Shown in pieces: positions 11,180-27,138 of a stretch of 64,000 nucleotides of DNA (position 1 is the first letter of the stretch; every line of letters starts with the position of its first letter). A program made the translations under genes and the position numbers. The DNA comes from Sphingobium sp. YR768 (GTDB lineage: Bacteria > Pseudomonadota > Alphaproteobacteria > Sphingomonadales > Sphingomonadaceae). The notes beneath the pieces are model-generated. The model was not told where the DNA came from. It searched no databases and was given only the letters and a program-made list of their open reading frames with translations. The stretch spans positions 124,001-188,000 of the forward strand of contig NZ_FOGE01000006.1 of the NCBI RefSeq assembly GCF_900111125.1, read 5' to 3'.

Positions 11180-12742
11180 TCAATTGACCATCCGCGCGCC
11201 GGTCCAATAGGCGGCGCGCAGGGCTTTCTTGTCCATCTTTCCGGCGGCGGTCCGGGGAATGGCGGGGACGAAGGCGACGCTCTTGGGCGCCTTCACTCCG
11301 CCCAGCCGGGCCTTGGCGTGGGAGATGATCTCTGTCTCCCCGATATTGTCGGCGACGACAATGGCATGGACGGCCTCGCCCCATTTTTCATGCGGGATGC
11401 CGATCACGGCGCACTCGCGCACGGCGGCCAGTTCGGTGACGGCGGCCTCCACCTCGGCGGAAAAGACGTTGAAGCCGCCGGACACGACCATGTCCTTCTT
11501 GCGATCGACGATGTAGAGATAGCCGTCCCTGTCGCGCCGGGCGATATCGCCCGTATGGTGCCAGCCATGGCTGCGCACTTCGGCGGTCGCATCGGGCATA
11601 TCATAATATTCGCGCGACACGAGCACCCCGCGCACCACCAGTTCGCCCGCCTCGCCATCGGGCAGCAGGCTGCCATCCTCGCCCATGATGGCGACGGTCA
11701 CGGATCGGGTTGGCCGCCCACAACTGGCGAGCCGTTCGGGTCGGTCGCCCGCCGCTGCCGCTGCGACATCCTCGGGCGGCAGCCAGGTGACGATCATGGG
11801 CGATTCCACCTGCCCATAGGCCTGGCAAAGGCAGGGGCCGAAGATGTCGACCGCGCGGCGAAGTTTCTCCGGGGAAACGGCGGAGCCGACCAGAAGGAAG
11901 AATTTCAACGAGTTGGTATCGCTGTCTGCCAGTTCGGGCGCATCAAGCAGGTTGTAAAGCGCAGTCGGCGGCAGATAGATATGGGTGACACGATAGCGCG
12001 CGATCGCCGCCAGCACGGCAGCGGCGTCGAAGCCGGGCAGGATGATCTGCGTCGCCCCCAGCGACAATGTCGCCAGCGCCACCGGACCGGCCGCATGGGT
12101 GATCGGTGCGACAACGAGCGAGACAGGTGAATCGCATTTTCCATCGACCGCGTCGGCAAGCGTTTCGATCATCGTGCCCCAGCCCAGATTGGTCACGACC
12201 ACGCCCTTTGACGGTCCTGTCGTGCCGCCGGTGGGGAACAGGCCGACCACATCGTCGGGCTTGCCGAACGGATCGGAAAAATCCGGCAAACTGTCCACTT
12301 CGCTGTCGCGGATAAACTGGTCGAGCGAAGGATCGCCATCATGCGGGCGGTCAAGGCAGACGAAGTGGGTAAGGCTTGGAACCCGCGCCTTCAGCGCAGC
12401 CACATCCGCCGCCTGACTGCTATGATAGAAGAGCCAGCCGCAACGGACATAGTCGAGATAGGCGGCATTGGCGTCGATGGCGTTGCGGGTGTTGACCGGC
12501 ACCCACTGGCCATTGGCGCGCCAGATGGCCAGCAGGGCGACCATCATCGTCGCGCTGTTGGGACCATAGAGCGCGATCGGCTGCTGATCGCGGAACCCCG
12601 CCGCATGCAGCGCGGCGGCGATCCGGATGGTCAGAGCCCGGACCTGCGCGAAGCTCAGCGTCTCACCGCTGGCGTCGTCGATCAGGCAGGGTCGTTCGGG
12701 ATCACGGTCATGGCCCCGGTCGAAATAGTCGATCGCGCGCAT
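11180..12742 (-). CDS. AMP-forming acyl/aryl-CoA ligase
   Basis: A 520-aa ANL-superfamily ligase that activates a carboxylic acid as its CoA thioester through an acyl-adenylate. The P-loop-like TGGTTGPSKG lies near residue 170, the A5-like motif YGQVES near residue 310, the hinge region HTGDIARRD near 395, DRKKDM near 410, and the C-terminal catalytic Lys in PRTAAGKMDKK. Start 12742 lies 4 nt past the stop of the GST gene, so it is the last gene of a receptor-GST-GST-ligase operon. In an aromatic catabolic context a cinnamate/ferulate-type acid is the likely substrate, but fatty or other aryl acids cannot be excluded. Confidence 0.82.
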   Translation of the reverse strand: MRAIDYFDRGHDRDPERPCLIDDASGETLSFAQVRALTIRIAAALHAAGFRDQQPIALYGPNSATMMVALLAIWRANGQWVPVNTRNAIDANAAYLDYVRCGWLFYHSSQAADVAALKARVPSLTHFVCLDRPHDGDPSLDQFIRDSEVDSLPDFSDPFGKPDDVVGLFPTGGTTGPSKGVVVTNLGWGTMIETLADAVDGKCDSPVSLVVAPITHAAGPVALATLSLGATQIILPGFDAAAVLAAIARYRVTHIYLPPTALYNLLDAPELADSDTNSLKFFLLVGSAVSPEKLRRAVDIFGPCLCQAYGQVESPMIVTWLPPEDVAAAAAGDRPERLASCGRPTRSVTVAIMGEDGSLLPDGEAGELVVRGVLVSREYYDMPDATAEVRSHGWHHTGDIARRDRDGYLYIVDRKKDMVVSGGFNVFSAEVEAAVTELAAVRECAVIGIPHEKWGEAVHAIVVADNIGETEIISHAKARLGGVKAPKSVAFVPAIPRTAAGKMDKKALRAAYWTGARMVN

Positions 12743-12746
12743 CGCC

Positions 12747-13496
12747 TCAGCCCCAGCGGTTGATCTCCGGGCCGGGCGCCCAGATCGCTTCGGGTTCGGG
12801 AATAGTGGCAAGGCCCAGGGCCTTCACCACGGCGGGCCGGGCGCGCAGCCGCGCTTCCCAGGCATCGGTCAACGGCGCGGCGGCGAAGGCATCGGGCACG
12901 ATCGCGCGCATCCCCGCCAGCCAGCCATGGGTTTCGAGGTCCGCGATGGAGAAATCGCCCATCAGCCAGTCGCGCCCGTCGGCCAGTTGCGCTTCGATCT
13001 TCTCGACCGCCTGCACGATCTTGGTGCGGCTGTCGGTCAGGCGGCTTTCCTCGACCTTGCCTTCCACCGCCTCGGTCCAGCGTGCCGCAAGATCCGCGCT
13101 GGCGATGCCGGCCGGGACGGCAGGCGGCGGCGCGGCCGCATTGCCCAGCGCGGCGGCGGCGGGCGCCACACGCTCGATCACATAGCGGCACCAGGCCATC
13201 ATCTGCCAGCGGGCATAGGGATCGGCCGGGCGGATCGCCGGACCGCTGCCGACCTCATCCAGATAGCAGGCCACAAAAACGCTGTCGGTCATGGCGACGC
13301 CATCCACGACCAGCACGGGGCCTTCGCCTTCGATCGACTGGTCGACTTCGATGGCATGGGGCAGGGCGGTCGAGTGGCGCTCGCCCGCAACCAGATCGAT
13401 CGCGCGCAAGTCCAGATCGACGCCTTTTTCGAAGGCAGCGGCCAGGACGGTGAAGGACGGGCCATTGGGCTGGCCATGATAGAGAATGCCGGTCAT
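12747..13496 (-). CDS. Glutathione S-transferase family protein (second GST of the pair)
   Basis: A 249-aa protein with an N-terminal thioredoxin-like domain (LYHGQPNGPSF, then the cis-Pro region VLVVDG and the glutathione-gamma-Glu site MTDSVFV) and an all-alpha C-terminal domain. It overlaps the stop of the LigF-like GST by ATGA. The glutathione-site sequence is less canonical than that of its partner: the usual TES is replaced by TDS, and the TNPxGxVP segment is not obvious. It may be a diverged beta-etherase, a glutathione lyase or an isomerase acting on the partner's product. Function is inferred only at family level. Confidence 0.7.
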   Translation of the reverse strand: MTGILYHGQPNGPSFTVLAAAFEKGVDLDLRAIDLVAGERHSTALPHAIEVDQSIEGEGPVLVVDGVAMTDSVFVACYLDEVGSGPAIRPADPYARWQMMAWCRYVIERVAPAAAALGNAAAPPPAVPAGIASADLAARWTEAVEGKVEESRLTDSRTKIVQAVEKIEAQLADGRDWLMGDFSIADLETHGWLAGMRAIVPDAFAAAPLTDAWEARLRARPAVVKALGLATIPEPEAIWAPGPEINRWG

Positions 13497-14260
13497 GCGG
13501 GTTCGCTTTCAAGCAGGGAGATGCGGCGGGCGAGGTCGGTGCGGCCCAGCGCCCAGCAGGCGCGGGTGGCAGGCCGTGCATAGATGGCACGCAGCCAGCG
13601 CATGATATTGGGCGTCAGTTCGTCATTGCAGAGCTGTGGCTGCGACAAGGGCATGGCATAGGCGAGGTTGAAGCCATTGATGTCGGCCAGACCATATTCG
13701 TCCGACGCCAGCCATTCCCGTTGCCCCAGCGCCTGCTCCAGATAGCCGATGCCGAGCGCGACACGACGCTGCGACTCCGTCATCTCCTCCGCTGAGAAGG
13801 CGCCATGGATCGCCTTGCGCCACGCCACGCGCCGTTCGGGCATCGGAATGCGGTCGATCGCGGCTTCCAGTTCGGCGGGATCTTTCTGCCGGACCGAGGG
13901 GCCGACGAATACGCTCCAGCCGATCATGGAGAAGCTGGGGGCGAGCCACTGGTCGAGAAATTTCATCCACCAGCGGGTGCGCCATTGATCGACGGGATCG
14001 GCGGGCATCAGGCGCGGGCCATCAAATGCCTCGTCCACATATTCCATGATGGCGGTGGATTCGGTCAGCACCTTGTCGCCATGGGTCATGGCCGGGATGG
14101 TGCCGAGCGGATTGACCGCCAGATAGTCCGGCCGATGCTGGTCGAAATTCAACAGGTCCAGATAATGGCTGTCGAACGCGACGCCCTTTTCGAACAGGGC
14201 CAGCATCGGCTTGCCCGAATTGGCGTTGGGTTCCCAATGATAAAGTGTGACGTCGGTCAT
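13493..14260 (-). CDS. LigF-like glutathione S-transferase (candidate beta-etherase)
   Basis: A 255-aa GST. The N-terminal domain has the PNANSGKP segment (residues 9-16) at the place where LigF-type beta-etherases carry NSLKP, followed by NPLGTIPAM and TESTAIMEY. The helical domain has WxKFLDQW, MIGW and a PMPERRVAWRKA block, all reminiscent of the LigF family, which cleaves beta-aryl ethers of lignin dimers with glutathione. The start 14260 removes an unsupported 32-residue extension. It sits 65 nt after the receptor gene behind a hairpin. LigF similarity is from remembered family sequences, and enantiomer preference cannot be judged. Confidence 0.72.
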   Translation of the reverse strand: MTDVTLYHWEPNANSGKPMLALFEKGVAFDSHYLDLLNFDQHRPDYLAVNPLGTIPAMTHGDKVLTESTAIMEYVDEAFDGPRLMPADPVDQWRTRWWMKFLDQWLAPSFSMIGWSVFVGPSVRQKDPAELEAAIDRIPMPERRVAWRKAIHGAFSAEEMTESQRRVALGIGYLEQALGQREWLASDEYGLADINGFNLAYAMPLSQPQLCNDELTPNIMRWLRAIYARPATRACWALGRTDLARRISLLESEPA

Positions 14261-14283
14261 GCCGCTTATGTCTCCGAAAAGAA

Positions 14284-14313
14284 GCCGGTCGGGCCGTGCG
14301 CTGCCCGACCGGC
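14284..14313 (-). terminator. Hairpin between receptor and GST genes (attenuator or terminator)
   Basis: A perfect 11-bp GC-rich stem (14284-14294 with 14303-14313) lies just after the receptor stop. On the - strand it is followed by TTCTTTT. It could end most receptor transcripts or protect the upstream mRNA, lowering expression of the GST and ligase genes relative to the receptor. Confidence 0.55.
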
Positions 14314-14325
14314 CAAGGGGGAGGC

Positions 14326-16833
14326 CTAGAATTTCTTCTTCACCGTCACGGCCCATTCGCGCGGATTGCCGGGACGTGCCTTGCGCACGCCAGCACCCGC
14401 GCCGCGCAGGTCGAAGACGGAGAGATAATAATATTTGTCGAAGAGGTTGGTGACTTCGAGCGAGACGTCGAGATCCTCGTCCGCATTCTGCCAGGTGACA
14501 CGCGCATTGGCGAGCGTATAGGCCGGCACGAAATTGAGAACCCGGGTGCCGCCGATGACCGCCGCGCCACCGAACTTCTTGTCTTCATAGGTGACGTCGA
14601 AGCGCGGGGTCAGGCTGCCGGCCTTGTCCATGTCGATCTTATATTGCGCGCCCAGGCTGAACTTCCAGGGCGGCGACACTGGCGGATCGTCGGCCGACAC
14701 GCCGCCCGGATTGGTCGGATAGGCGGCGGCGGGATCAAGGCTGCTCGCAATATATTTGAAGTCGAGATAGCTGATCGACGCATCGATCGCGAGGCCGTCG
14801 ATCGGATAGGCGGACAGTTCCGCTTCGAAGCCCTTCACCCGTGCATCACCGGCATTCAGGCGGGCGGCGCAGGGCGCAGTCGGGCAGGTCAGCACCGGGA
14901 TCTGGATGTCGACATAGTCATTGATAAAGGCCGCAGCGTTCAACCGGACGCGGCGATTGAAGAAGTCGCTCTTGAAGCCGATTTCATAGGCGGTCAGCTT
15001 TTCCGGGCGGAAGGCGATGACCTGCTGCGTGGTGAAGGGGCGCGGGTTGGAGCCACCACCCTTGAAGCCGGTCGACACCGACCCATAGACCATCAGGCTG
15101 TCGGTCAGGCGATAGTCGGCCGCGACGCGATAGTCCCAGCGCTTGGCGCTATAATGGGCGGTCAGGCCGGACAGCGCCGTGACGATCTCGGACGTGTTGC
15201 CGTTGCCGTTATAGTCGAGCGTGTCCGCACCAGAATAGCCGATGCCATAGGCTGCGCCGACCGGATCGAGGAAGTGATTGACCGTGCCGTCATAGTTGAG
15301 GCGATAATAGGTCTGGTCCTTCGTCTCCGCCGTGTAGCGCAGGCCACCGCTGAGCGTCAGCCGGTCGATCGGTTTCCAGGAGAGGTGCGCGAACGCGGCC
15401 TTTGCTTCCGCCTTGGTCGGGTCGGGCTGGCGGAATTGCAGCGGATAGACCGGGACGTAGCGAATGTCCTGAAGCGAGTCATAGGTCGACTTCTGCTTAA
15501 AATAATAGCCGCCGACCGTGCCGTTCAGATTGTCGCCCAGTTCCGCGTTCAGCCGGACCTCCTGGCTGAAGCTCCAATTCTCCAGATAGTTGCGGCCAAA
15601 ACCGATATTGGCGGGCGAGATATCATCGTCGGAATCAAACTGGGTGTTGAAGGTGCGATAGCCGGTGATGGACGACAGTTTGAACGCATCCGACAGGGCA
15701 TAGTTGATCTGGCCTGACACGCCCCAACCCTTGTACAGGCTGCGGTCCGTGCCCTGCGTGGCGGCGAGCGGTGTGCCCGATGCATTATAGGGATCGACCG
15801 GGATGGGGGGCGTCCATGTGCCCGCAGGCTGGCCGGTGCCGATATAGTTGCAATAGCGGCCGCAGATGAAGCGATCATCATAGACGATGCCGGGTGCCGG
15901 ATTGGTGTTGGGCGAATTGACCGTGCTGGTTGCCAGCAGCACTTCGCCGGCGATCGTATGTTCGTCGCGCGTATAATCACCGATCACGGTGACATCCAGC
16001 TTGTCGCTCGGTTCCCAGAAGGCGATGGCCCGGATCGCCTGATAGCCCACGCCGCCCAACTTGCTGATGACGCAGTCACCAGCCGGTTGGGTCGAGGCTA
16101 TGCCGCTGTCCGGATTGGCGCAGCCATAATCGATCCGGTCGACAAACCCGTCCTGCTGCTTGGCGACGCCGGAAATGCGGACGGCCAGCGTGTCGGTGAT
16201 GCCGAAATCGGCGGCGGCGCGGATGCCGATACGGTTGCGGATACCGTAATTCACCTCGACGAAACCGCCGCCATCGCCGGTGGGGCGCTTGGAATAGAGC
16301 TTGATCGCGCCGCCCTCGGCATTGCGGCCGGCCAGCGTGCCCTGTGGCCCGCGCAATATTTCGACGCGGTCGAGGTCGAGCAGTTCGAACACCGCGCCGG
16401 TCAACTGCGGATAATAGACATCGTCGATATAGATGCCGACACCCGGTTCATAGGCGGGGTTGAAGTCATTCTGGCCGACGCCGCGGATCGACGCGGTGAT
16501 GGAGGGGCCGAAGGACGCGCCCTGCGGTTTCAGCGACACGTTGGGCGCGGCGTCGGCCATCTGCGCCAGATTGGTCTGGCTCTTGGCCTCCAGTTCGGCC
16601 GCGCCGACGGCGGTGATGGAAATCGGCGTGTCCTGCAACCGCTGCGCGCGGAACTGGGCGGTGACGACGATGTCGGCGACCGCGCTGGCGGGTAGCGTGT
16701 CCTGATCGGCGCTTTGTGGCGCCGCGTCGGCTGGTTGGGCCTGCGCCAGGGCGCTGGCCGGAGTGGTGATGGCAAGTATCGAAGCGGACGCCAACAGGGC
16801 GCGCGCCATCATTGCACGAAGTTCGTGTTGCAT
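14326..16833 (-). CDS. TonB-dependent outer-membrane receptor
   Basis: This 835-aa protein starts after GGAGAGGGG. It has a signal peptide (ALA/Q near residue 30), a TonB-box-like ADIVVTAQ region near residue 52, a plug domain (TPISITAV, then SIRGVGQND and GVGIYIDDVYY), and a beta-barrel ending in the aromatic terminal strand VTVKKKF. It uses proton-motive force through TonB-ExbBD to bring a ligand across the outer membrane. It is the first gene of the operon that continues into two GSTs and a CoA ligase. A copy of the shared dyad motif lies 79 bp upstream. The ligand is probably a lignin-derived aromatic dimer (inference). Confidence 0.88.
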   Translation of the reverse strand: MQHELRAMMARALLASASILAITTPASALAQAQPADAAPQSADQDTLPASAVADIVVTAQFRAQRLQDTPISITAVGAAELEAKSQTNLAQMADAAPNVSLKPQGASFGPSITASIRGVGQNDFNPAYEPGVGIYIDDVYYPQLTGAVFELLDLDRVEILRGPQGTLAGRNAEGGAIKLYSKRPTGDGGGFVEVNYGIRNRIGIRAAADFGITDTLAVRISGVAKQQDGFVDRIDYGCANPDSGIASTQPAGDCVISKLGGVGYQAIRAIAFWEPSDKLDVTVIGDYTRDEHTIAGEVLLATSTVNSPNTNPAPGIVYDDRFICGRYCNYIGTGQPAGTWTPPIPVDPYNASGTPLAATQGTDRSLYKGWGVSGQINYALSDAFKLSSITGYRTFNTQFDSDDDISPANIGFGRNYLENWSFSQEVRLNAELGDNLNGTVGGYYFKQKSTYDSLQDIRYVPVYPLQFRQPDPTKAEAKAAFAHLSWKPIDRLTLSGGLRYTAETKDQTYYRLNYDGTVNHFLDPVGAAYGIGYSGADTLDYNGNGNTSEIVTALSGLTAHYSAKRWDYRVAADYRLTDSLMVYGSVSTGFKGGGSNPRPFTTQQVIAFRPEKLTAYEIGFKSDFFNRRVRLNAAAFINDYVDIQIPVLTCPTAPCAARLNAGDARVKGFEAELSAYPIDGLAIDASISYLDFKYIASSLDPAAAYPTNPGGVSADDPPVSPPWKFSLGAQYKIDMDKAGSLTPRFDVTYEDKKFGGAAVIGGTRVLNFVPAYTLANARVTWQNADEDLDVSLEVTNLFDKYYYLSVFDLRGAGAGVRKARPGNPREWAVTVKKKF

Positions 16834-16911
16834 GGGAAATCCCCTCTCCTGATCCGGCTTTAAGATCCGCCCTGACCGAGCGCGACCCGCCGTAACGCCT
16901 TCCGTGATATT

Positions 16912-16926
16912 GTTAGTAAGGCATAC
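16912..16926. promoter_or_regulatory. Candidate MarR operator, site 1
   Basis: GTTAGTAAGGCATAC, followed by AAT. It matches the consensus GTNAGTNNNNYATAC shared with three other promoters in this cluster. It lies in the 280-bp gap between the receptor and MarR genes, 79 bp upstream of the receptor start. The rest of that gap holds only the MarR terminator. Confidence 0.55.
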
Positions 16927-17059
16927 AATTTTTAGCGATGCAAGAGGCTGATCGCCCCCGCAACACCGATAATGCGATTATTTTACGATATTGGGAGAGG
17001 GCAAATAGTAGCGGTATTTCCATTGGTGGTAGTGGAAGTAATAGCTTCGTCCAAAACGC

Positions 17060-17095
17060 AAAAAGGCCTGCTCCCGTTTTGCAGGAACAGGCCTT
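17060..17095 (-). terminator. Terminator downstream of the MarR gene
   Basis: Arms AAGGCCTG (17063-17070) and CAGGCCTT (17088-17095), with extra TCC/GGA pairing inside. On the - strand the stem is followed by a T-run (complement of 17060-17064). It lies 19 nt past the MarR stop codon. Confidence 0.75.
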
Positions 17096-17113: not shown

Positions 17114-17578
17114 TCAGATGTAAACGCGGCGCAGCAGCTCCACCAGCATCGCCGTTTCGGCCGGGGTGAAGCGATCCTTCAGCCATTTCTCATGTTCGGC
17201 GATGCAGCTACGCGCCTGTTCCAGCGAGCCATGGCCCGCCTCGGTCAGGCTAAGCGTCTGGCGCCGGCGATCCTGTTCGGATGCGCCGCGCCGCACGAAA
17301 CCGCGATCCTGCATGCGGTTGACGATCGCCATGACGCTGGCCCGGTCCATTTTCAGCCGTCGGCCAATGTCCGCCTGGGCGATGCCGGGCTGGTCCTCGA
17401 TCAGCCAGAGCACCGCCACCTGCTTCTGCGTCAGGCCAAGGTCGCTGAACGTCTCGGTAAAATGCTGGTAGACCGCCGCGCTCGCCAGCCGGATGTGGAA
17501 ACCGACCAGTCCGTCAATGCCGCTGAGACGGGGATCGGGGAAGAGGCCGAGCGGCTCCATATCGTGCATGGTATTCAT
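17114..17578 (-). CDS. MarR-family transcriptional regulator
   Basis: A 154-aa winged-helix protein. The dimerisation helix at the N-terminus is followed by a helix-turn-helix (GIAQADIGRRLKMDRASVMAI, split at residues 65-85) and the wing with the MarR-type DRRRQTLSLTEAG at 103-115. MarR proteins usually repress divergent catabolic genes and release DNA on binding an aromatic ligand. It is divergent from the lignostilbene dioxygenase gene, and the shared intergenic region carries the dyad motif inside a sigma-70-type promoter. Alternative starts at Met4 or Met7 are possible; longer upstream reading is antisense to the dioxygenase. It is the likely local regulator of the aromatic cluster. Confidence 0.85.
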   Translation of the reverse strand: MNTMHDMEPLGLFPDPRLSGIDGLVGFHIRLASAAVYQHFTETFSDLGLTQKQVAVLWLIEDQPGIAQADIGRRLKMDRASVMAIVNRMQDRGFVRRGASEQDRRRQTLSLTEAGHGSLEQARSCIAEHEKWLKDRFTPAETAMLVELLRRVYI

Positions 17579-17622
17579 AGTAACAGTGTGCGGAGTAAAT
17601 AGCGGCGCGTCAATCCTGCGGC

Positions 17623-17650
17623 TTGAAAAAATGTGAGTGACACATACAAT
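17623..17650 (+). promoter_or_regulatory. Sigma-70-type promoter of the dioxygenase gene
   Basis: TTGAAA (17623-17628), a 16-bp spacer and TACAAT (17645-17650). The candidate operator at 17633-17647 covers the spacer and half of the -10 element, the arrangement expected for repression by blocking RNA polymerase. Confidence 0.5.
17633..17647. promoter_or_regulatory. Candidate MarR operator, site 2
   Basis: GTGAGTGACACATAC, followed by AAT, matching GTNAGTNNNNYATAC. It lies 54 bp upstream of the MarR start and 33 bp upstream of the dioxygenase start. A second dyad, GTGACA…TGTCAC (17637-17655), overlaps it, so two binding registers are possible. Confidence 0.6.
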
Positions 17651-17680
17651 GTCACCAACAAGATCAGGAGAGGATTCATC

Positions 17681-19796: not shown

Positions 19797-21397
19797 ACCG
19801 CTTCCCCCGCCGATCGCGCGCGGGGCAACAGGCTGGCATGATCGCGCTCAACCCGGAACAGCAGGATCAGCAACAATAGCACCAGCGGCGGGGCGACCCA
19901 GTTGATCGACAGGATCGCCCCGCCCAGATCGCCGCCCCGCGCATCGCTGATCATCCCCACTGCATAGGGGCCGATGCCGAGGCCAAAGATGGTCGATACG
20001 ACGATATAGAGGCTGACCGTCAGGCCGCGCATGCGCGGCAGAACCTGTTCGAACAGCACCGCATAAAGCGGCGGCATCCACATGGTCAGGATCAGGCTGT
20101 AGAGGGTGAAGCGCAGATAGAAGCTGCTCGCATCGCCGGCGCGATAGACCCAGAGCGCGATCAGCGGCGACAGGCCCATGGCGAACAACGCCACCCAGAC
20201 CCGGCGCGCCAAGCGATGCGCGCCGATCCGATCGGATAGCGGCCCGGCAATCAGCGGGCCGGCCACGCCCAGCGCGGCGGATAGCAGGCCGAATTGCATA
20301 CCCGTATCAGCGGGGGAGAGGCCGTAGCTTTTCATCAGGAAGGAGGGCGTGAAGCCCATCACGCCATAGTTGATCACGCCCTGTAGCGATCCCGCCGCAA
20401 CGCAGAGCAGCAGCGAGGGATTGCGAGTGATGAGCGCAAAGGCCACCGCATCGCGGCGCTTGAGCGACTGGATCAGGTTGAGGATGACGATGGCGCCGAA
20501 GCCGATCACGCTCCATTGCACGACATGCGGACTGATCGCGATCCCGCCCAGCAACAGGGGTGGCCGGGGAGAAAAGGCTTCGGCCCAGCGGATCGCCAGC
20601 AGCATCGCAACGATGATCAACGCCATAAGGCCGATATTGCGCATCCATTCGCGCCCGCTGGCGCGTGCTTGCGCGAGGCTGAGCCAGTGGAAGCCAGGCG
20701 TCACCGCGCCCAGCAGGGAGATGCTGGCGCGGAAGGGATGCGGATCGGGCGGCGTCGCGATGCCGTCGATCGCGCCGCGCTGCGGTTCGGCAAGCCGGCT
20801 CATCAGGAAGGCGATGAGGAAGCCGGGCGTCGCCGCCACGGCAAAGGCGAATTGCCAGCCTTTCAGGCCCAGCGGCGCCCCGCCCATTGCATAGCGCGCA
20901 TCCCACCATTGCGCCGCTACGCCGCCGATGATCAGCGATCCGCCAAGGCCGATGGCGATGGCGGCGGCCATCACCGCCATCACCATGCCGCGCTTCTCGC
21001 GCGGGAAATAATCATAGGTCAGGCTGGTCCCGGCCGGTTGCGACGCCGCTTCGCCAATGCCGACGCACAGGCGCGACAGCATGAGCGTGAAAAAGCCGGT
21101 GGCAAAGGCCGCGCCGCCGGTCGCCAGCGACCAGAAGCCGATGGTGATGGCCAGCAGCTTCGTGCGTATCCATCCGTCCGCCAGCCGCCCCAGCGGCAGG
21201 GAGAAGAGCGCGTAGAAGAGCGCGAAGACGGTGCCGTAGAGCAGGCCCATCTCCGCGTCGCCGATCTTCAAATCCGCCTTGATCGCCGGAGCCAGGATGG
21301 CGAGGATGTTGCGGTCGAGCAGGCTGACCAGATTGGTGCCTGCGACCAGCGCGAGTGCATAATAAGCGGTGCTACGCGGCGGGATCGTCTGGCTCAC
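19793..21397 (-). CDS. MFS transporter (spinster-like)
   Basis: A 534-aa major-facilitator permease with about 12 hydrophobic segments. The cytoplasmic loop after helix 2 (GRLADGWIRTK) is the MFS signature, and SLLDRNILAILAP in helix 1 is typical of the spinster-type aromatic-acid/sphingolipid-like group. The start overlaps the ligW stop by ATGA, making it the last gene of the NTF2-ALDH-ligW-MFS operon. It likely carries an aromatic acid or dimer across the inner membrane. Its stop codon is contributed by the palindromic element. Confidence 0.82.
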   Translation of the reverse strand: MSQTIPPRSTAYYALALVAGTNLVSLLDRNILAILAPAIKADLKIGDAEMGLLYGTVFALFYALFSLPLGRLADGWIRTKLLAITIGFWSLATGGAAFATGFFTLMLSRLCVGIGEAASQPAGTSLTYDYFPREKRGMVMAVMAAAIAIGLGGSLIIGGVAAQWWDARYAMGGAPLGLKGWQFAFAVAATPGFLIAFLMSRLAEPQRGAIDGIATPPDPHPFRASISLLGAVTPGFHWLSLAQARASGREWMRNIGLMALIIVAMLLAIRWAEAFSPRPPLLLGGIAISPHVVQWSVIGFGAIVILNLIQSLKRRDAVAFALITRNPSLLLCVAAGSLQGVINYGVMGFTPSFLMKSYGLSPADTGMQFGLLSAALGVAGPLIAGPLSDRIGAHRLARRVWVALFAMGLSPLIALWVYRAGDASSFYLRFTLYSLILTMWMPPLYAVLFEQVLPRMRGLTVSLYIVVSTIFGLGIGPYAVGMISDARGGDLGGAILSINWVAPPLVLLLLILLFRVERDHASLLPRARSAGEAV

Positions 21398-22449
21398 AGG
21401 CGGAACACGCGCTCGGCATTACTCTGCATCAGCTTGCGCTTCGCTGCGTCCGATATGTCCAGCAGGTCATGAGTCCGCACCTCATCCGCCACAAATTGAT
21501 AGGGATAGTCCATCGCATACATGACCCGATCCTCCCCCAGCACGGATTGCGCGAACTTGATCGCCGGCTCCCATGCCATGCCGCTGGTGGTAACGCAGAC
21601 GTTGGATCGCATATAGTCTTGAATGGACTTTTGCAGCGGCTTCATCCGCTCATAGCGCTGCGACCGCACGCCCGCCTGGTGCATATAGTCGAGGCGGTAG
21701 AGCCAATAGGGCAGCGCCTCCCCCATATGGCCGACGATGATCTGCAAATCGGGATAGCGATCGAAAATGCCGATGGTGATGAGGCGGAGCAGATGCATGC
21801 CCGTTTCGACGCCAAAGCCGAAGATCGCGCCGTCCAGCCCGGCTTCCAGCATCGGCCCGATCATGGCGTCGGGCGGGGTCGAGGGATGGATATAGAGCGG
21901 CTGGCCGGTATCGGCGAGCGCGCGGAAGATCGGGTCGAACTTCGGATCGTCCAGATATTCGCCCTGGGTATGGCTGTTCACCATCACCCCCCTGAAGCCC
22001 AGGTCGCCCGCGCCACGCCGGATTTCGGCGGCCGACCAGTCCGGGTCTTGCGGCGCGATCGAGGTCATGCCGACGAAGCGGGTGGGGTGAGCGGCGCAGC
22101 GGTCGGCCAGATGATCGTTGGCGCGCGTCACCATCACCTTGGCTTCGGCCATATCCAGCAACGGTTGCACACCGGGCGAGGTGAGCGACAGGATCGCCAC
22201 ATCAATGCCGGTCGCATCCATGTCCGCCAGTCGCTGATCGCCCAGTTCCAGCAACCGGTCGATGATCTGAGTCGCGCGCTTCGACGGCGACTGGGCGTAG
22301 AAACCCCAGAGCGACGTCATGCCTTTGTCAGTTGTCCCGTCGCGCACCATGCGCAGGTAGGCATCGATCTGCTCGCGGGTGGCGAAAGCCTCTTCGGTGG
22401 CGATCCGCAAATAGCCGCGATCGCCGCCAGTGTTTAACGCATGCGTCAT
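21394..22449 (-). CDS. ligW: 5-carboxyvanillate decarboxylase (LigW)
   Basis: A 351-aa amidohydrolase-superfamily non-oxidative decarboxylase. The sequence follows LigW from Novosphingobium/SYK-6 closely along its whole length as I recall it (RIATEEAF, GMTSLWGFYAQSPS, FGFGVETGMHLLRL, YAMDYPYQ). Metal ligands known in LigW fall at the same numbers: Glu19, His188 and Asp314, with His241 nearby. LigW removes the 5-carboxyl group of 5-carboxyvanillate to give vanillate, in a Mn-dependent reaction, downstream of biphenyl- and 5-formylferulate-type lignin dimers. It lies between the aldehyde dehydrogenase gene (3-nt gap) and an MFS gene (ATGA overlap). Confidence 0.9.
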   Translation of the reverse strand: MTHALNTGGDRGYLRIATEEAFATREQIDAYLRMVRDGTTDKGMTSLWGFYAQSPSKRATQIIDRLLELGDQRLADMDATGIDVAILSLTSPGVQPLLDMAEAKVMVTRANDHLADRCAAHPTRFVGMTSIAPQDPDWSAAEIRRGAGDLGFRGVMVNSHTQGEYLDDPKFDPIFRALADTGQPLYIHPSTPPDAMIGPMLEAGLDGAIFGFGVETGMHLLRLITIGIFDRYPDLQIIVGHMGEALPYWLYRLDYMHQAGVRSQRYERMKPLQKSIQDYMRSNVCVTTSGMAWEPAIKFAQSVLGEDRVMYAMDYPYQFVADEVRTHDLLDISDAAKRKLMQSNAERVFRL

Positions 22450-22452
22450 GGG

Positions 22453-23880
22453 TTATCCTTCGTGAATGGCTTTGGTGACGAGGCAGGCGTCAATGCCCTC
22501 CGGCCCGTCCTCCGCGCCATGGCCGGACCATTTGACCCCGCCAAAGGGCGAGTCCGACCCGCCGATCATGGATGTGTTGATGCCGACCATCCCTGCCTCG
22601 ATCTCTCGCGCGACCCGGCGTTGTCGTGCGGCATCGCTGGTCCAGGCATAGGCGGCGAGGCCATAGGGCAGGCGATTGGCTTCGGCGATCATCGCGGCCT
22701 CATCCCGATAGGCATTGATCAGCGCGACGGGGCCGAACGGTTCTTCGTTCATGATGGCGGCATCCAGCGGCGTGGCGGACAGGACGGTGGGCGCATAGAA
22801 AAAGCCCGCATTGCCGATCCGCGCGCCGCCGGTTTCGAGGCGGGCGCCCTTCGCGACCGCGTCGCCGATCAGCCGATCCATCGCGTCCAGCCGCCGGGGA
22901 TTGGCCATCGGTCCCATGATGCTGTCGGGCGCCGATCCGTCACCCACCACGACCTTTTCCGCGCGCTCCACGAAGCCGGCGAGGAAGCGATCATGCACGC
23001 TGGCTTCCACGATGAAGCGGGTCGGCGACACGCACACTTGCCCGGCATTGCGATATTTGCCCGCCACCACCGTATCGAGCGCCTTTTCGATATCGGCGTC
23101 GGCGAAGACCAGCACCGGGCCGTGGCCGCCCAGTTCCATCGTCGTGCGCTTGCAATCCTCCGCCGCCAATTTGGCCAGATGCTTGCCGACCAGGGTGGAG
23201 CCGGTGAAGCTCATCTTGCGGATGATGGGCGACCCAAGCAGGTGGCGCGACACTTCGTCGGGCACCCCGAACACCGCCTGCGCCACATCGCCGGGCAGAC
23301 CCGCATCGATCAGGCATTGCAGCACGGCGAGCGCGCTGGCTGGCGTTTCCTCCGCCGCCTTCAGGATCACTGAACATCCCGCCGCGATCGGCGCGCCCAG
23401 CTTGCGGCCGGGATTGCCGATCGGGAAGTTCCACGGCGCGAAGGCCGCGACCGGCCCCACCGGCTCTTTCGTCACCGTCGATCGCTGTCCGGCCGGACGC
23501 ACCAGCGCCCGACCGTAGAGGCGAAACACCTCCCCGGCATAGAAGTTGAACAGGCCGACATTCATCATCACTTCGATGCGCGCTTCGGCCAGCGTCTTGC
23601 CCTGTTCCAGCGTGGCGATGCGGGCCAATTCCTCCTGCCGCTCCACCATCAGCCGCGCCGCGCCTTGCAGCACGGTGGCCCGTTCCTGCGGTGTCGAGTC
23701 CCGCCAGCGACGGAAACCCCGCTGCGCCGCTGCCAGCGCCGCATCCAGGTCCGCCGCATCGGCCAGCGGCAAGTCGGCCAGCACGGCGCCGGTGGCGGGA
23801 TTGACGACCTTGTGGGTCCGCCGCCCGCCGCCCGACAGCCGCTGGCCATCGATCATCAGATAGAGATCGGGATAGGCCAT
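22453..23880 (-). CDS. NAD(P)-dependent aldehyde dehydrogenase
   Basis: A 475-aa ALDH. Active-site residues are visible: Asn151 (PWNFP), Glu249 (MELGGHGP) and the nucleophile Cys283 in NAGQVCVSP. The glycine motif FTGST is at 225-229. The best family match is the succinate-semialdehyde/aromatic-aldehyde dehydrogenase branch. Its position next to ligW and in the same regulon as lignostilbene dioxygenase makes an aromatic aldehyde from stilbene cleavage (vanillin- or 5-formylferulate-like) the likely substrate; this is inference. It lies 5 nt after the NTF2-like gene. Confidence 0.85.
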   Translation of the reverse strand: MAYPDLYLMIDGQRLSGGGRRTHKVVNPATGAVLADLPLADAADLDAALAAAQRGFRRWRDSTPQERATVLQGAARLMVERQEELARIATLEQGKTLAEARIEVMMNVGLFNFYAGEVFRLYGRALVRPAGQRSTVTKEPVGPVAAFAPWNFPIGNPGRKLGAPIAAGCSVILKAAEETPASALAVLQCLIDAGLPGDVAQAVFGVPDEVSRHLLGSPIIRKMSFTGSTLVGKHLAKLAAEDCKRTTMELGGHGPVLVFADADIEKALDTVVAGKYRNAGQVCVSPTRFIVEASVHDRFLAGFVERAEKVVVGDGSAPDSIMGPMANPRRLDAMDRLIGDAVAKGARLETGGARIGNAGFFYAPTVLSATPLDAAIMNEEPFGPVALINAYRDEAAMIAEANRLPYGLAAYAWTSDAARQRRVAREIEAGMVGINTSMIGGSDSPFGGVKWSGHGAEDGPEGIDACLVTKAIHEG

Positions 23881-23885
23881 GATGT

Positions 23886-24644
23886 TCAGGCGCTCACCGC
23901 TTCACGGGCCGCCGTCTCGCGGTCGATATCGCCCTGCCAGCGTTCGGCGACGATTTCCTTGCCGGTCACCGGATGGGGCATATGGAACGGCACCAGCTTG
24001 TGCGTCGGCCACAGCCAGTGATCGGTGATCAGCGCGTCCGGCCCGGTGGGGTCTTCGGGATAGGTAATCTTGGGGAAAGGCACATATTCGGCCGGCGTGT
24101 TGGCCCAGCCCTTGTCGAAATCGGCATGCCATTGCGGCATGTAGTTCAGGATCTGGATGCGCCAGATGCCATCCACCTTCTTGTAGGTGTTCTCGTAAAT
24201 GCCGCCTTCCCACCATTGGCGCGCGCCCAGCATCGGGTTGGACGGGTCGGCATAATCCTTGTGCCTGCCGGCCTGCATCATGGACCGGGCGCGGGCATGG
24301 GCCGTCACACCATCGGGGTCGATGTCAACAATGTCCTGCAATTGCGGATGGTCGAGCAGGAAGCCGTCGATCGGCCCGTTGGTGCCATGGGTGAAGCGCG
24401 CCTGAAACCGTTCGACATAGAGGCGACGAATGCCTGCCTTGCCGCGCCACACCCCGCCGAAAAAGCGCACTTCGCCATCGTCGGTGAACAGGTCCGCCGT
24501 CTCGTTATACAGGCATTTGTCGATCAGATAGCCGTAGAGATGCTGGAGCTTGCGCACATCCAGTTCATCCTCGCGGCGCTGGAGGCGGGTGGAAAGGGCG
24601 GCGACAGACTGTTCCAGCTGCGCAATACGATCAGCATCGGACAT
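23886..24644 (-). CDS. NTF2/SnoaL-like protein (candidate cofactor-free dimer lyase or decarboxylase)
   Basis: A 252-aa protein starting after GGAGAG. Residues of roughly 30-170 form a SnoaL-like NTF2 domain (RKLQHLYGYLIDK, then DLFTDDGEVRF, QWWEGGIYENTYKK and MPQWHADF), with a C-terminal extension of about 80 residues. Sphingomonad NTF2-like proteins of this type include LsdE/LdpA, which converts a diarylpropane to lignostilbene plus formaldehyde without a cofactor. The gene leads the ALDH-ligW-MFS operon and shares its operator motif with the dioxygenase, so making the stilbene is an attractive role. It may instead be a decarboxylase. The exact reaction is not established. Confidence 0.72.
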   Translation of the reverse strand: MSDADRIAQLEQSVAALSTRLQRREDELDVRKLQHLYGYLIDKCLYNETADLFTDDGEVRFFGGVWRGKAGIRRLYVERFQARFTHGTNGPIDGFLLDHPQLQDIVDIDPDGVTAHARARSMMQAGRHKDYADPSNPMLGARQWWEGGIYENTYKKVDGIWRIQILNYMPQWHADFDKGWANTPAEYVPFPKITYPEDPTGPDALITDHWLWPTHKLVPFHMPHPVTGKEIVAERWQGDIDRETAAREAVSA

Positions 24645-24663
24645 GATTTTCTCTCCTATCATT

Positions 24664-24678
24664 GTATGTAATACTTAC
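24664..24678. promoter_or_regulatory. Candidate MarR operator, site 3
   Basis: On the - strand GTAAGTATTACATAC followed by AAT, the most symmetric copy (GTA-GTA-TAC-TAC). It lies 20 bp upstream of the NTF2-like start and 16 nt upstream of GGAGAG; TACAAT on the - strand could be a -10 element. It separates the operon from the MFS gene at 24682, whose stop codon is 3 bp away. Confidence 0.6.
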
Positions 24679-24681
24679 GAA

Positions 24682-26103
24682 TTAAACCGCTTCAGCAGCC
24701 AGCCGCTCCACTTCTTCCCGATAGGGCCTGATCGCGCGGATCATGCAGAGCGTGGCGAGGGGCAGCAGCAGGCTGGCAGTCAGCACCAGCGTCTTCCAGA
24801 GCTGGGTCGGATCGCCGATCACATAATCCTGCACCAGTCCGACCAGAAAGCTGCCCATCGCGCCGAAGAAGGTGAACATGAACAGATAGATGGCCGTCAC
24901 CTGCCCGCGCATCGCATTGGGGGCGACGCGCTGGATCGCGGCATTTTGCGGCACGGCGCCGGCAATGCCGAACATCGCCCCGATGCTGGCGACGCCCAAT
25001 GAGGCATAGCCATTGGGCATCATTGGCGCGAGAATGGCGCAGACGGTGACGCAACTGAAGAAAATCGCGGCCGCGCGGACATTGGCGTCGGCATAGCGTT
25101 TGGCCAGCCATTCCACGAAGATGCCACCCAGCAGCAGACCGGTCAGCGACGCAGCCAGCGTCAGCGATCCCATCACCGCGCCGATCTGCGCCTCGTTCCA
25201 GCCATAGGTGCGGATCATGAAAGGCACGCGCCAGAATTGCAGGCCGAACGTCTCGATCGCGCTGAGGGCAAGACCGGCGAACAGCGGATAATAGACGCGA
25301 CGCTTGGCATGGATCGCCTTGGCGGCGTCCAGACCGGTGAAGGTCAGGATGCGGCGGCCAAGGGACGCGCCCTGCGGCAACGTGATCGCCCCTGTGGCCA
25401 TGCGGCGCGGCGGTTCTTTTATTGTCAGGAAAAGCAGGGAGACGAGCAGGGCAGGCAGACCCAGCCAGATCATCAGCCATTGCCAGCCCAATATGGTGAT
25501 GCCGCCATGCTGGGTCGGGGCCCAACCGACCGCCGTGGCGATCAGCATCCCGCCGATCGCCGGTCCCAGCGTCGTGCCGCCGATAAAGCCGAATTGCAGC
25601 AGCGCAAAGGCGCGGGTCAGGATGCGCGGCGGAAAGGCGTCGGCCAGCAGCGAGTAGGAGGACGGCGCATGGGCCGATCCACCTGCTGCCAGAAAGACCC
25701 TTGTCCCCACAAACTGACCGAAATTCTGCGCGATGCCCCCCAGCGAGGTGATGACGCCCAGCGCTGCGACCCCGCCCGCCAACACGAATTTGCGCGGGAA
25801 GATGTCTGCCAGCCTTGCCAGCGGAATGCCGACGAACAGATAGCAGATGATGCTGGCTGGCCCAGCCAGAAAGCCAAGCTGCGAATCGGACAGGCCGAAA
25901 TCCGCCTTGATCCGCTCTGCCAGCATGGCGAAAACCACCTGTTCGAAGAAGGTGATGAAGGTTGCCAGGATGATGACGAACAGCGCCCAATAGGCGGCGG
26001 CCATCGAATAAGGCGGGGGCGCCGCGCGGGTCGGATCGGACGGAACAGCCGCCTCTTCGTCCCACAGGCTGTCGGTCGCAATAGGCGCGGGCGCCAGGGC
26101 CAT
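24682..26103 (-). CDS. MFS transporter (spinster-like), second copy
   Basis: A 473-aa permease with about 12 hydrophobic segments and the loop signature (LARLADIFPRK) between helices 2 and 3. The N-terminal 30 residues are a low-complexity cytoplasmic tail. GAGAGGAGAAGG precedes the start. It is divergent from the LigD-like SDR gene across a region with operator site 4, and convergent in position with the upstream end of the NTF2 operon. Its general class matches the other MFS protein of the cluster; the two may import different dimers, or one may export an intermediate. Confidence 0.82.
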   Translation of the reverse strand: MALAPAPIATDSLWDEEAAVPSDPTRAAPPPYSMAAAYWALFVIILATFITFFEQVVFAMLAERIKADFGLSDSQLGFLAGPASIICYLFVGIPLARLADIFPRKFVLAGGVAALGVITSLGGIAQNFGQFVGTRVFLAAGGSAHAPSSYSLLADAFPPRILTRAFALLQFGFIGGTTLGPAIGGMLIATAVGWAPTQHGGITILGWQWLMIWLGLPALLVSLLFLTIKEPPRRMATGAITLPQGASLGRRILTFTGLDAAKAIHAKRRVYYPLFAGLALSAIETFGLQFWRVPFMIRTYGWNEAQIGAVMGSLTLAASLTGLLLGGIFVEWLAKRYADANVRAAAIFFSCVTVCAILAPMMPNGYASLGVASIGAMFGIAGAVPQNAAIQRVAPNAMRGQVTAIYLFMFTFFGAMGSFLVGLVQDYVIGDPTQLWKTLVLTASLLLPLATLCMIRAIRPYREEVERLAAEAV

Positions 26104-26163
26104 GACCTTCTCCTCTCTATTTCTCCCTTTTTCACAGGGATGAAATTTCGGCTTGGCGAATTT

Positions 26164-26178
26164 GTAAGTGATCTATAC
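26164..26178. promoter_or_regulatory. Candidate MarR operator, site 4
   Basis: GTAAGTGATCTATAC followed by GAAT, fitting GTNAGTNNNNYATAC with one weaker half. It lies in the 132-bp gap between the divergent MFS and SDR genes, 61 bp upstream of the MFS start and 58 bp upstream of the SDR start. Confidence 0.5.
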
Positions 26179-26235
26179 GAATATGGCGAGAGCAAAAATT
26201 CACGACCGTTAAAAAATCAGCGAAGGGAGATAGGG

Positions 26236-27138
26236 ATGCTTCAGTTAAGTGGGCGAACCGCCTTTGTGACCGGTGGCGCCAACGGGATCGGCCTGGGCGT
26301 GGCCCGCGCCTTGCTGGCGGAAGGCTGCAAGGTGGCGATCGCGGACATACGGGAAGACGCCATCGCCGCCGCGCTCAAGACGCTGGACAATCAGGACGTG
26401 ATAGGTGTCCCGCTCGATGTCGCATCGCGATCGGGCTTTGCGGACGCGGCCGACCGGGCGGAGGGGAAACTGGGGCCGGTCAGTCTGTTGTTCAACAATG
26501 CCGGGATCAACCTGTTTCAGACCATCGATGAGTCCAGCTATGATGACTGGGACTGGGTGATGGGGGTCAATCTGCATGGCGTCATCAACGGCGTCATGAC
26601 CTTCGCGCCGCGGATGAAGGCGGCGGGGCAGGGCGGCCATATCGTCAACACCGCGTCCATGGCCAGTTTCCTGTGCGGGCCGGCGCCGGGCATCTATAAC
26701 ACCACCAAATTCGCCGTGCGCGGCATGAGCGAATCGTTGCGTTATAGTCTGGCGCCCCATGGCATCGGCGTTTCGGTGCTGTGTCCCGGTCTCGTGAAAA
26801 GCCATATCTATGCCAGCGACGAAATCCGTCCGGCGGCGCTTAGCGCGAACGCAAAGCCGGTCGACGGCGCGGCGGTCGATCGTCTGGCGCAAATCCATCA
26901 GTTCGGCATGGAGCCGGACGTGATCGCCGCGCGGACGATCGATGGCATCCGGGAAAATCGCTTCCACATCTTCTCCCATCCCGAATTTCGCGATGAACTC
27001 GACACGCTGTTCGGCGAGATATTGGCCGATTTCCGCGACTATCCGGAAGATGCGGGCTTCTCCCAGCGCACCGGCTTCGAAAAGATCCGGCGCGAAAGCT
27101 ATGAAAGCGCACGGCGCACCGCCCGTGCACGCGCATAG
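26236..27138 (+). CDS. LigD/LigL/LigN-like short-chain dehydrogenase (candidate C-alpha dehydrogenase)
   Basis: A 300-aa SDR. The start follows GAAGGGAGA. The cofactor motif TGGANGIG is at 12-19, NNAG at 87-90, and the catalytic Ser141, Tyr154 and Lys158 (YNTTK) are present. The YDDWDWVMGVNLHGVING stretch (102-119) and the C-terminal HQFGMEPDVIAARTIDGI block are close to C-alpha dehydrogenases LigD/L/N, which oxidise the benzylic alcohol of beta-aryl ethers to a ketone before LigE/F cleavage. In this cluster a LigF-like GST is also present. Similarity is from recalled family sequences; stereochemistry and substrate are unknown. Confidence 0.8.
   Translation: MLQLSGRTAFVTGGANGIGLGVARALLAEGCKVAIADIREDAIAAALKTLDNQDVIGVPLDVASRSGFADAADRAEGKLGPVSLLFNNAGINLFQTIDESSYDDWDWVMGVNLHGVINGVMTFAPRMKAAGQGGHIVNTASMASFLCGPAPGIYNTTKFAVRGMSESLRYSLAPHGIGVSVLCPGLVKSHIYASDEIRPAALSANAKPVDGAAVDRLAQIHQFGMEPDVIAARTIDGIRENRFHIFSHPEFRDELDTLFGEILADFRDYPEDAGFSQRTGFEKIRRESYESARRTARARA

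Follow-up and report, generated by a model that had tools for sequence, protein, structure and literature searches.

The closest described counterpart of the locus analyzed here is the DC-A (beta-5) cluster of Novosphingobium aromaticivorans (Saro_0796-0802 and neighbours), whose pathway was published in 2024 and whose cluster has been proven experimentally (PMC11323797). For beta-O-4 dimers, the reference is the heterodimeric beta(R)-etherase BaeAB, for which the roles of Asn14 and Ser15 in BaeA and an assay of the Sphingobium xenophagum enzyme have been described (PMC6369299). A third related locus is the lsdD-desR region of SYK-6 (SLG_12860/12870), in which the DesR operator was tested by EMSA; ring opening in SYK-6 is carried out by PhcC/D/F/G.

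On the regulatory side, the DesR regulon of SYK-6 (PMC6888825) and the Saro_0803-nov1 pair of N. aromaticivorans (PMC10046596) have been described. The available text of these papers gives vanillate/syringate as effectors of DesR and resveratrol as that of Saro_0803, names desB, the ligM operon, desR and nov1 as targets, and does not name pcfL, baeAB or other dimer genes; the DesR paper further reports that DesR does not control desA. A published DAP-seq survey of 44 factors had Saro_0803 outside its set. According to another study, slow growth on lignin dimers may stem from misregulation rather than from missing enzymes (PMC11837543).

Gene content and conservation of gene order

The window, that is, the whole 64,000-nucleotide stretch of DNA analyzed, comes from the sphingomonad Sphingobium sp. 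YR768. It contains a 19-kb block that holds, by sequence comparison, relatives of proven enzymes for two types of lignin-dimer bond (Table 1). These assignments are based on identities of 78, 79, 75, 72, 69, 55 and 64% to N. aromaticivorans PcfL, FerD, LigW, LsdD, BaeA, BaeB and LigO, respectively, on the gene order of the proven cluster, and on retained residues.

Table 1. Genes and predicted operators of the block (window coordinates)
Feature	Position	Strand	Remarks
Amidohydrolase (Amidohydro_2), final gene of baeAB unit	8085-8963	-	Pfam 2.8e-40
PQQ dehydrogenase, C-terminal cytochrome c domain	8947-11079	-	Pfam PQQ 8.2e-78 and Cytochrome_CBB3; lipoprotein-like N-terminus
AMP-forming acyl-CoA ligase, baeAB unit	11180-12745	-	Pfam 1.3e-65; 67% to N. 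aromaticivorans baeB neighbour
baeB, beta(R)-etherase partner subunit (predicted)	12747-13496	-	Ser14 retained, position 13 Pro
baeA, catalytic subunit of heterodimeric beta(R)-etherase (predicted)	13493-14263	-	4-nt overlap with baeB
TonB-dependent receptor, first gene of predicted TonB-baeAB transcript	14326-16833	-	Pfam; predicted operator upstream
Predicted DesR operator, upstream of TonB-baeAB	16910-16928	+	TTGTTAGTAAGGCATACAA, 0 mismatches
desR-type MarR regulator	17114-17593	-	Pfam MarR_2 4.3e-17; adjoins lsdD
Predicted DesR operator, desR/lsdD divergent promoter	17631-17649	+	1 mismatch
lsdD, lignostilbene dioxygenase	17633-19150	+	likely GTG start 17681; 72% to LsdD/NOV1
DUF3237 gene	19147-19632	+	overlaps lsdD end; Pfam 2.9e-42
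MFS permease 1	19793-21397	-	Pfam; syntenic in N. aromaticivorans and SYK-6
ligW, 5-carboxyferulate/5-carboxyvanillate decarboxylase	21394-22449	-	75% to N. aromaticivorans LigW (solved: 4inf/4qrn)
ferD, 5-formylferulate dehydrogenase (ALDH)	22453-23880	-	79% to N. aromaticivorans FerD; 76% to SYK-6 syntenic copy
pcfL, phenylcoumaran gamma-formaldehyde lyase (predicted), NTF2/SnoaL	23886-24662	-	start probably 24644
Predicted DesR operator, immediately upstream of pcfL	24662-24680	-	1 mismatch
MFS permease 2	24682-26103	-	Pfam; 64% to N. aromaticivorans syntenic gene
Predicted DesR operator, divergent MFS2/ligO promoter	26162-26180	+	2 mismatches
ligO-type C-alpha dehydrogenase (SDR)	26236-27138	+	64% to N. 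aromaticivorans LigO (3ioy)

The original prediction had described a compact locus for lignin-dimer breakdown. Its observation is confirmed, every named gene occurring as an open frame at, or very close to, the position given, while its interpretation is partly supported and needs correcting. The DUF3237 gene and the MarR regulator were absent from its list. The unit also extends beyond position 11180 into the PQQ dehydrogenase gene, with its cytochrome domain, and the amidohydrolase gene, and the program-made open reading frame at 25237-27138 is a frame extension of the SDR gene.

To assess conservation, the NTF2 protein was used to retrieve 80 named loci, of which several were short. The order NTF2-ALDH-LigW on one strand was kept in 65 of the 80 loci and the longer order MFS2-NTF2-ALDH-LigW-MFS1 in 56, and the gene order in N. 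aromaticivorans is identical to that of this set. Because the order is kept across both, the grouping is not a matter of chance. The DC-A cluster shares ligO, MFS, pcfL, ferD, ligW, MFS, DUF3237, lsdD and MarR genes with the window in the same order, and differs in having, in addition, ligN and a further open frame placed between ferD and ligW. The SYK-6 locus shares MFS-FerD-LigW-MFS-DUF3237-LsdD-DesR within about 12 kb, so that the description of these genes as spread out in SYK-6-type genomes was only partly right; no PcfL-like or BaeA-like gene was found there in the 20 kb examined.

With its pathway already described in 2024 (PMC11323797), the compact cluster cannot count as novel. The fusion of beta-5 and beta-O-4 modules is new as far as the literature was searched: baeAB lies 2.2 Mb from the beta-5 cluster in N. 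aromaticivorans, whereas in the window the baeAB unit is joined to it behind the TonB receptor.

The beta-5 module

The NTF2 protein of the window, the sole match in its own genome at E 0.001, is 78% identical over 247 amino acids to Saro_0796 PcfL versus 44% to N. aromaticivorans LdpA, and its gene adjoins ferD, ligW and lsdD. An LdpA/LsdE identity, as originally assigned, was rejected on these values; chains 8abt-8abw were matched at only 186-189 bits. Since the protein belongs with PcfL, a beta-5 (phenylcoumaran) dimer is the likely substrate, in preference to the diarylpropane, the other type first proposed. A beta-1 pathway, in which an LdpA/LsdE-type lyase would act on a diarylpropane and 5-carboxyvanillate would be decarboxylated to vanillate, could draw on the shared NTF2 fold family, on the identity to LdpA and on the fact that 5-carboxyvanillate decarboxylation is a LigW activity. 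However, beta-1 cleavage gives two vanillin molecules and would need neither FerD nor LigW, and the closeness to PcfL and the conserved PcfL-FerD-LigW-LsdD order also speak against this pathway, which we regard as very improbable.

The remaining enzymes agree with the beta-5 assignment. The ALDH is orthologous to FerD and occupies the same position. LigW retains its key residues Glu19, His188 and Asp314. LsdD scored 897.7 bits against NCBIfam NF053778 (equivalog cut-off 800) and retains all four Fe-binding histidines (His183, His234, His300 and His492). The proposal of a lignin-dimer locus that would form a stilbene, cleave it, oxidize the aldehyde and carry out a decarboxylation is right in outline and fits these relatives of PcfL, LsdD, FerD and LigW. 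By analogy with N. aromaticivorans, PcfL would act on dehydrodiconiferyl acid, opening its phenylcoumaran ring and releasing formaldehyde. LsdD would cleave the stilbene to vanillin and 5-formylferulate, the latter would be oxidized by FerD, and LigW would convert 5-carboxyferulate to ferulate. This last step, predicted from the published pathway (PMC11323797), replaces vanillate as the suggested end product of LigW, although published work shows that LigW also decarboxylates 5-carboxyvanillate.

The stilbene part might instead serve mainly plant stilbenoids such as resveratrol, with lignin dimers secondary, given the in vitro cleavage of resveratrol by NOV1 and the response of Saro_0803 to this compound. 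We give this little credence, as breaking down resveratrol has no obvious need of PcfL, FerD or LigW and the lignin stilbene accumulates in lsdD mutants of N. aromaticivorans (PMC11323797).

The beta-O-4 module

The pair first read as a LigF-like GST plus a partner GST corresponds to BaeA and BaeB: the two genes are tandem and overlapping, BaeA retains Asn14 and Ser15, and BaeB retains Ser14. BaeA and BaeB are 95% and 83% identical, respectively, to a pair in S. xenophagum, which is the only tandem among the BaeA-like GSTs found in that species and, judging from its sequence, is very probably the assayed BaeAB. LigF was considered and rejected for the window GST, which is 37% identical to SYK-6 LigF; the orthologue in this genome lies elsewhere (C35:7980, 69%).

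As in the BaeAB system, the overlapping GST pair is followed by CoA ligase, PQQ dehydrogenase and amidohydrolase genes; the N. aromaticivorans unit has an ALDH gene between the last two. The PQQ dehydrogenase shares 58% identity with its counterpart in the N. aromaticivorans unit, and the amidohydrolase 80% with the orthologue adjoining baeAB there. The CoA ligase, one of the genes first listed, is conserved with BaeAB and not with the stilbene genes. The dehydrogenase called LigD/L/N-like is present as an SDR, with its identity corrected to an orthologue of N. aromaticivorans LigO, which we located by published primers and which the published study, unable to obtain the protein, did not assay.

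In the predicted route, the SDR would oxidize the C-alpha alcohol and BaeAB would cleave the beta(R) ether with glutathione. The phenylpropanone may then be processed by the PQQ dehydrogenase and the CoA ligase encoded in the same unit. A GST for glutathione removal after BaeAB cleavage was not found within the block.

A predicted shared DesR-type operator

The MarR protein of the window is 64% identical to DesR, the SYK-6 protein beside lsdD (SLG_12870, adjoining lsdD SLG_12860), and 52% identical to Saro_0803, and by sequence it is the orthologue of both. Like these two systems, the block combines an orthologous repressor, a place beside lsdD and an inverted repeat of the DesR class. The predicted desR/lsdD operator of the window lies in the same place as the EMSA-tested IR-R, the counterpart of the lsdD site in SYK-6, and as the Saro_0803 inverted repeat at nov1, which overlaps the N. 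aromaticivorans copy of the operator.

Four operators were predicted in the window versus 0.04 expected, a number reached in none of 100 shuffles, and all four sit at promoters of the block. The site upstream of the TonB receptor gene is conserved in eight Sphingobium-type loci; the MFS2/ligO site is weak, having 9-10 of 15 core bases in common with the SYK-6 inverted repeats. The whole genome yielded five matches within two mismatches versus six for a reversed control; what speaks for the operators is that four of the five matches fall in the block. From these sites we infer DesR-type binding in Sphingobium sp. YR768.

Across the 80 loci, 156 sites within two mismatches were identified in 64 loci, at MFS2/SDR (56), lsdD/desR (37), pcfL (35), TonB (8), CoA ligase (2) and elsewhere (18, of which 15 lay between ligM and purU). 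None of the 156 sites lay inside a matched gene. Counted as strand hits, the true pattern gave 187, versus a mean of 1.7 and a maximum of 6 for 30 letter-shuffled patterns. In N. aromaticivorans, the pattern precedes ligD, ligE, ligF1, baeA, pcfL, lsdD, ldpA, a Nu-class GST gene and ligM, and one site also lies upstream of a desA; the sites are of two sorts, GTTAG-type and symmetric GTATG-type. The published ligE promoter mutation, which gives about 1,000-fold more LigE, falls within a predicted operator. At the same stringency the only sites in SYK-6 are those of lsdD and ligM, so that control across the dimer genes does not hold in every sphingomonad. The pattern failed to pick up the DesR site known at desB in SYK-6 and is therefore incomplete.

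Taken with the gene content, these sites make it probable that a DesR-type repressor controls both the beta-5 and the beta-O-4 relatives in the block through the four predicted operators. Without ligand, DesR would occupy the TonB-baeAB, desR/lsdD, pcfL-ferD-ligW and MFS2/ligO promoters, and it would be released by vanillate, as SYK-6 DesR is, or by a stilbene, as Saro_0803 is; products of either route would then switch on both. Such sharing of a predicted operator by four promoters of one block is new as far as the literature was searched, as is the orthology of the MarR gene beside lsdD to both DesR and Saro_0803.

A possible but less likely reading is that the two modules are mere neighbours, with separate MarR proteins (of the DesR, DesX or FerC types) recognizing the operators and no common switch. 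The two sorts of site in N. aromaticivorans, the different ligands reported for DesR and Saro_0803, the position of desA outside DesR control in SYK-6 and the own-genome pattern count, which does not exceed its control, are in its favour. Nevertheless, the block has a single linked MarR gene, orthologous to both of the proteins shown to bind the sequence at lsdD/desR, and every window site falls at a block promoter. If one repressor does shut both beta-5 and beta-O-4 cleavage, this would link two regulators hitherto investigated separately, SYK-6 DesR and the resveratrol sensor Saro_0803.

Beyond this block, common control may extend further, and we see an even chance that DesR/Saro_0803 is the master repressor of sphingomonad lignin-dimer catabolism, with one operator class for beta-5, beta-O-4, beta-1, vanillate O-demethylation and one-carbon disposal, so that vanillate or stilbene from any bond type would open all of them. 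In that case, the regulon would cover about 17 promoters in N. aromaticivorans, the present genome would have the dimer genes of the regulon gathered in a single block that carries four operators, and the laboratory-selected increase in LigE would be explained as an operator mutation. The DUF3237 barrel protein coupled to LsdD would then supply it with a second source of stilbene.

A DUF3237 gene beside lsdD

The block points to a conserved DUF3237 gene adjoining lsdD in a pathway that is otherwise worked out. Its product carries the DUF3237 domain and thus has its family in common with the decarboxylases PhcF, PhcG and PinX; we predict a ring-opening decarboxylase or an elimination catalyst. 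In a tree, the lsdD-linked copies grouped in a clade of their own (97/90). The SYK-6 tandem pair, taken as PhcF/PhcG from its place near LSD7, fell outside this clade on long branches. A DUF3237 gene that overlaps lsdD and groups with such a clade is new as far as the literature was searched.

Gene content and the beta-5 module

The genome of Sphingobium sp. YR768 comprises 5.73 Mb, with the window on a 197-kb contig, and is assigned to the genus of the reference genome taken as Sphingobium sp. SYK-6. That reference is taken as SYK-6 because one of its proteins matches LigF (4xt0) at 100% and its eight lignostilbene dioxygenases are ordered like the published tags; a second is taken as N. aromaticivorans DSM 12444 from a 100% match to NOV1 (5j53) and from published primers fitting ligO, ligN, and ligD. 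The genes listed in the original prediction, which proposed a locus for diarylpropane or phenylcoumaran-type lignin dimers at 11180-27138, are real, as judged from open frames and domain matches. Below 11180, the unit runs on with PQQ dehydrogenase and amidohydrolase genes.

The beta-5 module (pcfL, ferD, ligW, lsdD) has the same gene order as in N. aromaticivorans, with identities of 78% for PcfL (the NTF2-like protein), 79% for FerD, 75% for LigW, and 72% for LsdD; LigO shares 64%. Working with mutants and extracts, Metz et al. (2024, PMC11323797) established that PcfL removes formaldehyde from dehydrodiconiferyl acid, giving a stilbene. According to the same report, LsdD cleaves this stilbene to vanillin and 5-formylferulate, FerD oxidises 5-formylferulate, LigW converts 5-carboxyferulate to ferulate, and all four enzymes are predicted in 82 organisms. 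The earlier beta-1 (LdpA-type) reading of the NTF2-like protein fails because its identity to LdpA is 44%. LsdD of the window keeps the iron-binding His residues and their Glu partners, and LigW keeps all residues checked. Only one gene of the PcfL/LdpA type is present in YR768, and likewise a single close LigW. Among the 80 loci retrieved with the NTF2-like protein as query, the NTF2-ALDH-LigW order was kept in 65 and the five-gene order MFS2-NTF2-ALDH-LigW-MFS1, which includes both permease genes, in 56.

Positions of features in the window
Feature	Position	Remarks
GH106 alpha-L-rhamnosidase gene	4718-8056	Immediately adjoins the baeAB unit
MarR regulator gene	17114-17593	Inside the predicted span, additional to the genes first listed
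DUF3237 gene	19147-19632	Inside the predicted span, additional to the genes first listed; start overlaps the dioxygenase stop
Inverted repeat	19686-19756	Long and exact, with GC-rich arms that reach 23 nt or more; lies where the DUF3237 and MFS1 genes converge
Phenylalanine/tyrosine-homogentisate block	30105-36483	Aromatic amino acid hydroxylase, aminotransferase, HPPD, homogentisate dioxygenase, fumarylacetoacetase, GST
Gene set resembling organosulfur scavenging	46293-57521	Luciferase-like monooxygenases, three-domain rhodanese, cysteine dioxygenase-like protein, NMT1-type binding protein, ABC ATPase

The beta-O-4 module

The two GST genes overlap by four bases, and their products match BaeA/BaeB in having Asn14/Ser15 and Ser14, respectively. 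Their identity to N. aromaticivorans BaeA/BaeB is 69%/55%, and it rises to 95%/83% for a tandem pair of S. xenophagum NBRC 107872, the strain from which BaeAB was cloned and assayed, with beta(R)-specific cleavage reported (Kontur et al., PMC6369299). The 95% pair is very probably the assayed BaeAB, since no other BaeA-like GSTs found in S. xenophagum stand in tandem; the equation draws on this uniqueness and not on matching tags. The N. aromaticivorans unit, baeA-baeB-CoA ligase-PQQ dehydrogenase-ALDH-amidohydrolase, lies 2.2 Mb from lsdD, whereas in the window the baeAB unit follows a TonB receptor gene and is joined to lsdD. Of the 11 closest Sphingobium-type loci (L003-L012, L077), eight show the TonB-baeA join and the other three have the TonB gene out of view; a different join occurs in Rhizorhapis (L059) and in a MAG (L063).

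A DUF3237 gene beside lsdD

We collected 51 LsdD orthologues (at least 55% identity, with 2.5 kb downstream) from the PcfL-fetched loci, the window, and the reference loci. A same-strand DUF3237 gene lay within 2.5 kb of lsdD in 29, including SYK-6 and N. aromaticivorans, and within 150 bp in 22; none was linked in the nine nearest Sphingobium-type loci holding lsdD. In a tree that carries a long-branch warning, the linked copies form one clade (97/90) that includes one unlinked S. xenophagum copy. A SYK-6 tandem pair near LSD7, presumed from its position to be PhcF/PhcG, falls outside this clade on long branches. PhcF, PhcG, and PinX are reported to be DUF3237 decarboxylases that introduce stilbene-type double bonds (PMC12607616, PMC12997858). 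We propose that the linked protein might open a gamma-carboxylated phenylcoumaran and pass the stilbene to LsdD. It cannot simply replace PcfL, because pcfL mutants accumulate dehydrodiconiferyl acid one for one (PMC11323797). Its predicted structure (pLDDT 93) resembles other DUF3237 structures and PhnH.

Elsewhere in the YR768 genome, contig C45 (115923 and 149136; L092, L095) carries another DUF3237 gene and, at a distance of 33 kb, a second lignostilbene dioxygenase homologue (41%) that adjoins a TonB receptor; these genes are possibly another dimer locus.

A predicted operator at dimer-cleavage genes

Visual comparison of intergenic stretches brought out a common element, TTGTNAGTNNNNCATACAA, with four window matches within 2 mismatches versus 0.04 expected, at the TonB-baeAB, desR/lsdD, pcfL, and MFS2/ligO promoters. 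Across the 80 loci, 156 sites (at most 2 mismatches) occurred in 64 loci, none within a matched gene: 56 at MFS2/SDR, 37 at lsdD/desR, 35 at pcfL, 8 at TonB, 2 at the CoA ligase, and 18 unlabelled. Fifteen of the 18 lie between divergent ligM-like (67-95% identity) and purU-like (69-85%) genes, which stand in the pcfL neighbourhood of 15 loci (e.g., L028, L038, L048, L070, near 2-5 kb). Thirty letter-shuffled patterns gave a mean of 1.7 and a maximum of 6 matches versus 187 for the real pattern, strands counted separately.

Genome-wide scans (at most 2 mismatches) were compared with the reversed pattern. YR768 had 5 matches versus 6 for this control; because counts alone show no excess, the evidence in this genome is placing, with 4 of the 5 inside the block. 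SYK-6 had 2 versus 1, and S. xenophagum 9 versus 2, four of the nine in its block. The known SYK-6 desB site was missed, so the pattern is incomplete.

N. aromaticivorans yielded 20 distinct sites (23 rows) versus 1. Seventeen are directly upstream of a gene (at gcvT, on its start), and three have no clear target. The targets are ligD, a formate dehydrogenase gamma gene, MFS2/ligN-ligO, pcfL, lsdD/Saro_0803, gcvT, ligF1, desA, ligE, two TonB receptors, a Nu-class GST, ldpA, ligM/purU, an aldehyde dehydrogenase, baeA, and folD. NCBIfam named ligE, desA, ligM, purU, gcvT, and folD above the curated cut-off and the formate dehydrogenase gene below it; ligF1 was named from 61% identity to SYK-6 LigF, the TonB receptors by eye, and the others by PDB sequence matches or primers (ligD, ligO, ligN). 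In the presence of G-diketone or GP-1, ligL, ligN, ligD, ligO, ligE, ligF, baeAB, and the Nu GST are reported to be more abundant, and GGE likewise brings a rise (Linz et al., PMC8612281); our scan demonstrated no site at ligL.

Laboratory evolution is reported to have given three of four strains one shared change, 55 bp upstream of ligE; it falls within an inverted repeat, with no regulator named for it (PMC11837543). On glucose, LigE was about 1,000-fold more abundant in the two evolved strains whose proteomes were examined, and the authors ascribe this to the change. The predicted operator covers -58 to -40 relative to the LigE start chosen here, and we take the mutation as an independent sign for it.

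A probable regulator

The window MarR protein shares 64% identity with its SYK-6 counterpart adjoining lsdD and 52% with Saro_0803. SYK-6 lsdD is SLG_12860 and desR is SLG_12870; their intergenic region was gel-shifted, with IR-R important, vanillate and syringate lift DesR, and SYK-6 desA is reported not to be acted on (PMC6888825). IR-R corresponds in SYK-6 to our lsdD site, and IR-M to our ligM site. At nov1, the Saro_0803 binding site is 22 bp long and encloses the inverted repeat GCAATA------TATTGC; resveratrol weakens the binding (PMC10046596). Six dashes are printed versus seven bases seen here between the arms, and the repeat overlaps the N. aromaticivorans lsdD site. DesR is named solely in the reference list of that paper. 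We infer that the window MarR, DesR, and Saro_0803 are one orthologous regulator whose reach includes dimer cleavage.

Both the enzymes and the beta-5 cluster have been described before. The baeAB fusion, the dimer-gene-wide operator, the equation of DesR with Saro_0803, and the lsdD-linked DUF3237 clade were undescribed in the open-licence literature searched, and some may be in print.

An inverted repeat

The inverted repeat downstream of the DUF3237 gene is possibly a terminator or a mobile palindrome; its 19-nt core is paired in one other relative among 224 loci, Sphingobium terrigena (L011).
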